A DNA stretch of 64,000 nt from Halorubrum xinjiangense (GTDB taxonomy: Archaea; Halobacteriota; Halobacteria; Halobacteriales; Haloferacaceae), in contig NZ_FNBO01000003.1 in NCBI RefSeq assembly GCF_900102375.1, positions 124,001 through 188,000 on the forward strand, in the 5' to 3' direction. The position numbers were made by a program, and so were the translations under genes. Positions 2,576 to 4,856 of the stretch are shown here, piece by piece. How positions within the stretch are numbered: the stretch's first letter is position 1; the number at the start of each line of letters is the position of its first letter. A model generated the notes under the pieces. The model saw nothing but the letters and a program-made list of their open reading frames with translations. It ran no database searches and had not been told where the DNA came from.

Positions 2576-2836
2576 GGACACCTAATCCGGAGAAAGCGTA
2601 AAATGCGTTCTGGTCGACACGATCGCGGCCGGTTTTCCGTAGTATCGACTGGTGTGTCGTGAGTTAATCGGGGGCCACAGTAGGTAGCTAGAGGCTAACT
2701 TAAGTACTCGTAGGAGAATTGATAGGTAGATGATGTGCTTCAGATGCGATCTCGTAGGCGGGTATGAGAGGGGCTTCTCGTCCCAGAACGAAGAGAGTAG
2801 CCTACCCATACTCGGCGATGTGTTCGCGGGTGAATC

Positions 2837-4534
2837 GTGGAATTAGATCTCAAACAGCATCTCCCGAGTTTGGTGCTTCTGTTCGGGCTGACAGTCGTCG
2901 GGGTGTTTCTGCGGGCCAATTCCGATCTGTTCGTGCCGGTCGCGCAGGACCTCGACTTCGCCTTCCGGCTGATGATCGCCGGGACGGTTATCGCGGTCAT
3001 TCGGAACGAGCTCGGAATGAGCACCTTCGGCGTGTTCGGGCCAGTGATCCTCTCTTTCTCGTGGGTGGTTATCGGCCCGTTCTGGGGGTTCGTTATCATT
3101 GCGTACATCTTTATCATCACGTCGCTCGCCCGCGTCGCCATCAGTGACTTAGACCTCGGGACCGCCCACCGTGTGGCGTCACTCCTCGTCGTCGCAGCCA
3201 TCGGCCTGTTCGTCCTCGAAGCCGCCGCTCAACTCCAAAATCTCCAATCGCTCCAAGCGGTCATCCTCTTCCCGGTGGTGTTGACCACTTGGTACGCTGA
3301 GCGCTTCGTCGGCAGTCTCACCGAGACCGGCTGGCCGCCTGCGACTCGCCGCCTCGCCGCGACGCTTCTTAGTATCGCTGCGGCGTTCTTTGTCGTCACC
3401 TACGAGCCGCTCGTCGGACTCGTCATCCGTTCGCCGGAGCTGTGGGTCGCGCTTGTCGCGGTCAACATTCTTTTTGGGACGGTCACCGACACTCGTCTCG
3501 CCGAATACCTCCGATTCAGGACGTTACGGCGCTCTCTCGGGACGAAAAACGCCGGAAATATTCTCACAATGCGGATCAGAAATCGAGAGTTCATCAGCAG
3601 ATACAACCCCGCGTCGGTCATGGCGGCGTTCGATAAGGGCGACATGAAGAAAACGCTTCACGGGCTTTCAATCCCCACGCCCGCCACCTATCTCATCGCT
3701 GCGGACGAGTCCGATTTCCAAGAACTTCGGACGCTCCTCGAGACAAAAGACGAGTTCGCCATTAAACCGATCGATGGATCCGGTGGCCGTGACGTGCTCG
3801 CCGTTCGGGGGCGCGACGAGGAGACCGACGAATTCCTCACGAACCGCGGGCGGCTAACAGCCGATGAGATCGTGGCTCACACTCGAAATATCTGCGTCGG
3901 CGGTGTCAGTGACTACGGTGCTCGCAGAGAGGCCCTCGTCGAGGGGTTCATCACACCCGACGGGATGCTTGCGAACCGAATAACGGACGGAGTGCCCGAC
4001 CTTCGAGTCATCACCCTCCTCGGCTTTCCGGTGATGTCGATGGTCCGGCTCCCGACCGAGGAGTCGAACGGAACTGCGAATATCCATACGGGTGCCGTCG
4101 CCGTCGCTATCGACATTGCAACCGGTGAAGCGTCCGGTGGCTACCAGCAGACGCACGACGAATTCATCGATTCCCACCCCGATTCGGGAGCCGACCTCGA
4201 ATTCAGCGTTCCCGACTGGGAAGCCGTCCTCACAATGGCGTCACAGGCCGCCATCTCGAGCGGCCTCGGGTTCGCCGGCGTGGACATCGTCTTCGATGAG
4301 GAGGACGGACCGATGGTGCTTGAAGTGAATCGACGTCCCGGTCTCGGCATCCAGAACGCGAATATGGACGGCCTGCTCCACCGCCTTCGCACCGTCGAAG
4401 CGCACGGTGATCTGGACCAATTCCAATCCGCACACAACCGCGTGCGCCGCTCGCAGGAATGGGCAACGCATGACTGGGAGATGGTCGAGCAACCATCGAC
4501 GGACCGCAAGACCGCAAGCGAGGTGAGTATCTGA
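2837..4534 (+). CDS. 7TM membrane domain fused to an alpha-L-glutamate-ligase-like ATP-grasp domain
   Basis: 565 residues. Residues 1 to ~225 are hydrophobic with about seven membrane segments. Residues ~230-545 are an ATP-grasp ligase of the RimK-related kind: SRYNPASVMAAFDKGDMKKT begins the domain, KPIDGSGGRDV (near residue 309) is the nucleotide loop, and LEVNRRPGLGIQNAN (near 494) carries the metal-binding Glu and Asn. Such ligases join an amino acid or peptide to a carboxylate using ATP. In bacteria a related 7TM region is normally a separate protein, fused to an inactive transglutaminase and encoded beside the ligase. The start is GTG. Base and codon use look less GC-rich than in neighbouring genes, which may mean transfer. 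The substrate is unknown. Confidence 0.8.
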   Translation: MELDLKQHLPSLVLLFGLTVVGVFLRANSDLFVPVAQDLDFAFRLMIAGTVIAVIRNELGMSTFGVFGPVILSFSWVVIGPFWGFVIIAYIFIITSLARVAISDLDLGTAHRVASLLVVAAIGLFVLEAAAQLQNLQSLQAVILFPVVLTTWYAERFVGSLTETGWPPATRRLAATLLSIAAAFFVVTYEPLVGLVIRSPELWVALVAVNILFGTVTDTRLAEYLRFRTLRRSLGTKNAGNILTMRIRNREFISRYNPASVMAAFDKGDMKKTLHGLSIPTPATYLIAADESDFQELRTLLETKDEFAIKPIDGSGGRDVLAVRGRDEETDEFLTNRGRLTADEIVAHTRNICVGGVSDYGARREALVEGFITPDGMLANRITDGVPDLRVITLLGFPVMSMVRLPTEESNGTANIHTGAVAVAIDIATGEASGGYQQTHDEFIDSHPDSGADLEFSVPDWEAVLTMASQAAISSGLGFAGVDIVFDEEDGPMVLEVNRRPGLGIQNANMDGLLHRLRTVEAHGDLDQFQSAHNRVRRSQEWATHDWEMVEQPSTDRKTASEVSI

Positions 4535-4791
4535 TGTCATCGAGCAAAGTCGGTGACACCGCGTGGCCGTACACGCAGCTTACAGCCGCTCTACTGTTCA
4601 GTATCCTCCTTTTCATCCCCATCGTCCTCGCGGGACTGCCCGGAGTCGCTCGAACGCCGATCACCGGCCTGTTCACGCGAGAGGAGGTGCTCTTGCTGTT
4701 CTTTATCGGGATGCCGCTCGTGTTCACTGTATTCGCCGTATATCGTGTCGCACAGTTTTACGGGATATTCGGAGGGAGCGAAGCAAATTAG
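4534..4791 (+). CDS. small two-helix membrane protein coupled to the 7TM/ATP-grasp gene
   Basis: 85 residues with two clear membrane segments (residues ~17-35 and ~50-70) joined by a short polar loop containing FTREE. The start ATG overlaps the TGA stop of the preceding gene (ATGA), so translation is very likely coupled and the two products probably act together. I do not recognise the family. It could be a membrane partner or stabiliser of the ligase. There is no signal peptide or cysteine. Confidence 0.7.
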   Translation: MSSSKVGDTAWPYTQLTAALLFSILLFIPIVLAGLPGVARTPITGLFTREEVLLLFFIGMPLVFTVFAVYRVAQFYGIFGGSEAN

Positions 4792-4856
4792 CAGTCGAAG
4801 GTCGGTTAGCTATTCCACCTGCGGTGGAAGCCCCGTCGTGTACGGCGAGGAGGATG

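Follow-up and report, generated by a model that had tools for sequence, protein, structure and literature searches.

What kind of enzyme is encoded where a membrane domain and an ATP-grasp ligase share one polypeptide, as at a locus of the haloarchaeon Halorubrum xinjiangense, and does the very small gene that follows belong to it? We analysed this locus within a window of 64,000 nucleotides, i.e. the whole stretch of DNA considered here (RefSeq assembly GCF_900102375.1, contig NZ_FNBO01000003.1, positions 124,001 to 188,000; all coordinates below refer to the window). An initial annotation, made from the letters alone, had proposed a RimK-related ATP-grasp ligase joined in a single chain to a 7TM region, and both the ligase and its fusion were borne out. 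The fusion gene (2837..4534, + strand) is one open reading frame of 565 aa with a GTG start, comprising a membrane helix, a PF14402 core and a PF14397/TIGR02291-like ligase, in which the motifs KPIDGSGGRDV and LEVNRRPG are present. Pfam placed PF14402 (7TM_transglut) at residues 44-230 (E 1e-20; 74.8 bits, cut-off 25) and PF14397 (ATPgrasp_ST) at residues 248-521 (E 2e-58; 198.5 bits, cut-off 31.4). The RloB model NF052267 gave a weak match of 43 bits (threshold 900), restricted to positions 314-505, the C-terminal part of RloB. The GTG start at 2837 is supported by an ATG at the corresponding place in Halorubrum kocurii and H. coriense, the nearest named relatives of the window genome.

Hydropathy and AlphaFold helices delimit the membrane module at residues ~9-216 (2861..3484, + strand). 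The annotated membrane region holds, with a correction to its helix count: an extra helix is predicted at residues 9-27, ahead of the seven-helix core, and a total of eight fits better. Across 17 aligned fusions, the loops after core helices 1, 3, 5 and 7 carry on average 1.6, 1.5, 3.6 and 6.4 lysine and arginine residues, and the remaining core loops, which alternate with these positive ones, are neutral or negative. Given this positive-inside pattern and the additional helix, we prefer a topology of eight helices with both the N- and the C-terminus in the cytoplasm. The conserved charged residues R56, R112, R156, E163, R220, E223 and R226 of the membrane part are all predicted to face the cytoplasm, where the ligase is placed. 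By position, the first helix of the fusion would match the helix with which bacterial RloB begins; in bacteria a transglutaminase ectodomain separates that helix from the core, and its place would here be taken by a loop of ~13 residues.

The ATP-grasp domain (residues 241-542; 3557..4462, + strand) was delimited by its TIGR02291 match, its conserved residues and its top fold match to RimK. Residues K310, G316, G317, R404, N415, H417, D483, E496 and N498, among them the metal triad D483, E496 and N498, are kept in at least 16 of 17 aligned fusion sequences, and the ligases encoded as separate genes in Aeromonas, in Legionella and in an archaeal bin (G554) retain the fusion's conserved catalytic residues. 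A dead ligase, a possibility raised at the outset for the homologues, was rejected on account of this conservation (the site is intact in 17 fusions and three split homologues), and the fusion ligase looks active. Among solved structures, the AlphaFold model of the fusion (pLDDT 77.6) most closely matches RimK, a poly-alpha-L-glutamate ligase (4iwx, 5zct; E 7e-9); an alignment with RimK covers the metal site, and the metal-binding block is common to both proteins. Among the matches listed, the solved structures are ATP-grasp proteins, and those from the viral library mostly so. The ligase domain also matches the alpha-L-glutamate ligase-like protein TIGR02291 (rimK_rel_E_lig; NCBIfam) over its full length (E 2e-69); as judged by its score of 234 bits, below the equivalog cut-off of 314.2 bits, it is a diverged branch of this family and not an equivalog.

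The small gene (4534..4791, + strand) is an open reading frame for a protein of 85 aa with predicted membrane helices at residues 12-34 and 49-75 and an FxxxPxxF motif in the second helix; neither Pfam nor NCBIfam revealed a family match. The initial annotation had described it as an ATGA-coupled two-helix gene. The gene and its coupling stand, whereas the junction in the window reads TGATG, with an overlap of one base between fusion stop and small-gene start; the four-base ATGA overlap is that of most relatives. Conservation of the small gene with the fusion had been named as a check of the annotation, and in each of 20 haloarchaeal loci (20 of 20) the fusion proved to be followed by a gene for a two-helix protein that overlaps its stop codon or directly adjoins it. 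These loci comprise the 14 first found, the window among them, and six later ones that were not used in defining the partner. Strong matches to a partner profile (E < 1e-12) in 293 genomes were confined to the neighbourhood of fusions and, in one genome (G052), of a decayed copy; the next matches (E 6e-5) were long unrelated frames, and no orphan partner was detected. As most of the strong matches belonged to the training set of the profile, the lack of orphans is the informative part of this search. On this result and the 20 loci a chance pairing was rejected, and the two-helix membrane protein is a constant, overlapping companion of the fusion.

Partner sequences differ greatly from one another, with a mean column identity of 30%, and homology between its three clades is suggested by position, two-helix shape and the short motif. 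Between Halorubrum species, dN/dS is ~0.15-0.2 for the small gene and ~0.1 for the fusion, values indicating that both are under purifying selection. A structure model of the small protein was of low confidence (pLDDT 67). At its C-terminus, the partner of Haloarcula japonica (L033:7695-8441) bears a DUF1508 (YegP-like) region comprising two stretches. In one clade (L040, L041, L085, L086, L087, L089) the partners share an identical ATGHVRERKPPS tail while the remainder of the protein varies, which makes this tail a candidate contact site.

A search of archaeal genomes revealed the fusion as a recurrent haloarchaeal form. It was detected in about 11 of 293 Halobacteriales genomes, with decayed copies in two others (G052, G292), and in a second draw with the PF14402 profile in 18 of 392 Halobacteriales genomes, all over cut-off, corresponding to a frequency of ~4-5%. 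The ligase always follows the haloarchaeal PF14402 match, in a single frame except for a frame break at two loci (L034, L041). In a phylogenetic tree, a branch with 100/99 support separates all fused sequences from three split homologues; the simplest reading is that the fused form arose once, for a tree whose root is not independently fixed. We found no papers on the haloarchaeal form; an earlier mention in the amidoligase paper of Iyer et al. (2009) is possible.

The split homologues of Aeromonas (L035) and Legionella (L036) are encoded as separate neighbours, with PF14402 on an inactive transglutaminase (PF14400) in its own gene beside the ligase and a PF05618 protease gene upstream; the separate 7TM-transglutaminase and ligase genes that the initial annotation had described for bacteria are seen in both loci and are described for Pseudomonas aeruginosa (PMC12239564). 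There, the RloA-RloB-RloC stress operon (PA1768-PA1767-PA1766; mBio 2025) encodes RloB with a transglutaminase-like ectodomain and seven helices, the ATP-grasp protein RloC and, as a secreted protease, RloA. In vitro, RloA cleaves polyglutamate, for which the genome was found to encode no target. Genetically the three proteins act in a single pathway: rloA protease mutants have an osmotic defect that is relieved when rloB or rloC is lost as well (PMC12239564). In an exopolysaccharide-level study of P. aeruginosa flagellar mutants, insertions in PA1766-PA1768 were among the suppressors (PMC7314104).

The third split form, in archaeal bin G554 (L092:11404-12771), begins in a signal-like manner and combines a long repeat of Asp/Thr and an ectodomain without an assigned family with the membrane core; a separate ligase gene adjoins. 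Contamination was rejected as an explanation, since thermosome-like and FrhB-like genes on its contig make it look archaeal, though the form was present in 1 of 50 family members only.

As had been noted from the window, neither a transglutaminase gene nor one for a protease of the retropepsin type adjoins the cassette, and PF14400 did not exceed its cut-off in any of 19 fusion-bearing genomes. The PF05618 matches of these genomes lie elsewhere, and the one examined is a RimK-retropepsin fusion. This single-chain protein, composed of a RimK ligase and a PF05618 domain of the retropepsin-like type (L061:388-1752; G000:C4 about 39140), was Pfam-checked in G000. Frames of 460-500 aa with PF05618 occur in 13 of 13 haloarchaeal genomes examined, and PF05618 also matches the control Haloferax volcanii, a laboratory strain in whose genome PF14402 gave no match; haloarchaeal RimK and RimB seem to be joined as one core protein.

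The locus was compared with the empty site of other Halorubrum. The two genes are flanked by a DUF2269-like gene and a 3-dehydroquinate-synthase-II-like gene, and in ~17 other Halorubrum the same two flanking genes are near neighbours, with 70-300 bp between them in most cases. The window is homologous to the empty site up to about 2641 and again from about 4855, so that a unit of ~2.2 kb (approximately 2641..4855) was inserted. An insertion-sequence origin was considered and rejected, as no convincing terminal inverted repeats or target duplication were seen. The lower GC and deviating codon use suspected from the window were confirmed by GC3 values of 0.74 for the fusion and 0.69 for the small gene, compared with 0.89-0.97 in six nearby window genes. 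A plasmid of Halobacterium sp. DL1 and the chromosome of a member of another family (G173) have 2,384 bp in common with 99.9% identity and unrelated flanks, and this block consists of just the two genes and short margins. Related cassette versions are found in different families, and two versions inside one genus (g37). Among gene families common to at least six loci, no third gene recurred with the cassette beyond close relatives. The transfer hinted at in the initial annotation is backed by the empty sites of sister species and by the cassette that two unrelated genomes share almost unchanged; as read from these comparisons, the pair is inserted as a unit and spread by transfer.

Further elements were observed near some copies. 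The right-hand edge of the block common to the DL1 plasmid and G173 is formed by an element of 200 bp (L037:5949-6148, also L044) that contains imperfect inverted repeats of 36 bases. A repeated element, one frame of which reads NVRTEI / REMLASLRVPRLLKSP, follows the cassette of Halomicroarcula (L034, after ~7910) and also joins the broken edge of the truncated fusion copy in G292 (L047).

On balance, we slightly favour the view that the locus is a horizontally exchanged two-gene cassette for a membrane-held RimK-type ATP-dependent amino-acid ligase. Its fusion protein, as read from the sequence, joins an RloB-like membrane core to an RloC-like ATP-grasp ligase with the catalytic residues kept. 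The eight-helix membrane module, with its C-terminus and conserved face inside, would tether the ligase to the membrane on its cytoplasmic side, where it would activate a carboxylate by ATP and couple it to an amino group. Glutamate would be the most likely unit added, judging from the analogy to RimK and to RloA, the protease that cleaves polyglutamate. The acceptor may sit in the membrane or be reached through it, and the small protein could be an accessory subunit with a stabilising or gating role in the membrane core. The interpretation in the initial annotation is supported at the level of sequence, its membrane-bound peptide-ligating enzyme and a complex of the two proteins being proposals. 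The scores below the RloB and TIGR02291 thresholds, the low confidence of the small-protein model and the basis of homology between the partner clades in position, shape and a short motif weigh against our view.

Four other readings share parts of this evidence. The ligase could build a chain of glutamate, or of another amino acid, inside the cell and the membrane core pass it outward, in the manner of PgsB-PgsC with poly-gamma-glutamate; the small protein would then correspond to PgsE, and in bacteria RloA would trim the exported chain. Synthesis of poly-alpha-glutamate by RimK fits this, as do the cleavage of polyglutamate by RloA, its missing genome-encoded target and the rescue of rloA loss by loss of rloB or rloC (PMC12239564). 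The core also gave a colinear profile alignment of 136 columns with the halves of archaeal CapC, whose score of 22-25 exceeded that of a reversed control (17-18), of a control membrane family (17) and of 100 of 100 and 149 of 150 column shuffles. However, the hhalign match is weak (probability 3-7%, E about 0.005-0.015), one shuffle in the larger test outscored it, the N-half of CapC alone gave no match, and no hydrolase lies beside the haloarchaeal cassette, so that we regard such an exporter, attractive as the analogy is, as unlikely and treat the CapC match as a lead. The archaeal CapC proteins (L114, L115, L117-L124, L125-L134) have ~400 residues and two CapC-like halves, unlike bacterial PgsC, which is short. 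Rather unlikely, too, is the more specific proposal that the RloB-type core is distantly related to PgsC/CapC and the fusion a synthase-exporter of poly-amino acids in a single chain, served by a small subunit of its own; if true, bacterial RloABC would be an ATP-grasp-based, protease-trimmed polyglutamate secretion system.

The membrane core might otherwise be a sensor regulating a ligase with a soluble cytoplasmic target, in the way RimK acts on ribosomal protein S6. RimK is the nearest solved fold, the conserved charged residues face the ligase side, and the bacterial transglutaminase and the different G554 ectodomain could be sensing modules; yet the ~13 residues between the first two helices of the window protein leave little outside to sense with, and the haloarchaeal genomes examined already have a separate core RimK-retropepsin protein. 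A sensor is in our estimate distinctly unlikely. That the enzyme modifies a glycan or lipid carrier of the cell surface with an amino acid appears improbable: the best family match, PF14397, is named 'sugar-transfer associated ATP-grasp', which points to another acceptor and counts against our preferred reading, and the PA1766-PA1768 suppressors came from an exopolysaccharide study (PMC7314104), but no glycosyltransferase or surface-polymer gene recurred as a neighbour among families common to at least six loci. Patchy occurrence, precise insertion, recent between-family transfer and decayed copies would also suit a selfish cassette, or one for defence or competition. This we consider very improbable, given long-term purifying selection, the lack of a transposase within the cassette, and the lack of recurrent defence neighbours among the families common to at least six loci; a defence function was rejected after PADLOC gave no match.

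Our preferred reading, a membrane-held amino-acid ligase, can be set beside three known systems. RimK is soluble and has no membrane helices, in contrast to the fusion, and the TM-score between the two is 0.54-0.57 by target length. The PgsB-PgsC-PgsE and CapBC systems, of which PgsB-PgsC make poly-gamma-glutamate, offer a possible analogy: the trio likewise combines a cytoplasmic amide ligase, a multi-helix membrane subunit with weak profile similarity to the fusion core, and a very small membrane partner. PgsB is a Mur-ligase-like enzyme and not an ATP-grasp protein. RloABC, whose RloC is distinct from the tRNase of the same name, has the PF14402 core family, the PF14397 ligase family and their order in common with the haloarchaeal fusion. 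It differs in that core and ligase are two chains there and one here, that PF14400 and RloA are missing here, and that the haloarchaeal cassette always contains an extra two-helix protein. What is new is the RloB/RloC pair as one predicted archaeal chain, free of transglutaminase and protease and accompanied by a constant small partner. The natural fusion of both proteins suggests that RloB and RloC work as one complex; as a 'Rosetta stone' it predicts that these proteins, whose effects in Pseudomonas concern cell shape and the tolerance of osmotic conditions, make up a single membrane-bound ligase. The haloarchaeal cassette further implies that the core function can do without the transglutaminase domain, it names a new small and constant companion of RloB/RloC-type proteins, and with its 2.2 kb it provides a compact counterpart of the bacterial system in which to search for the product.
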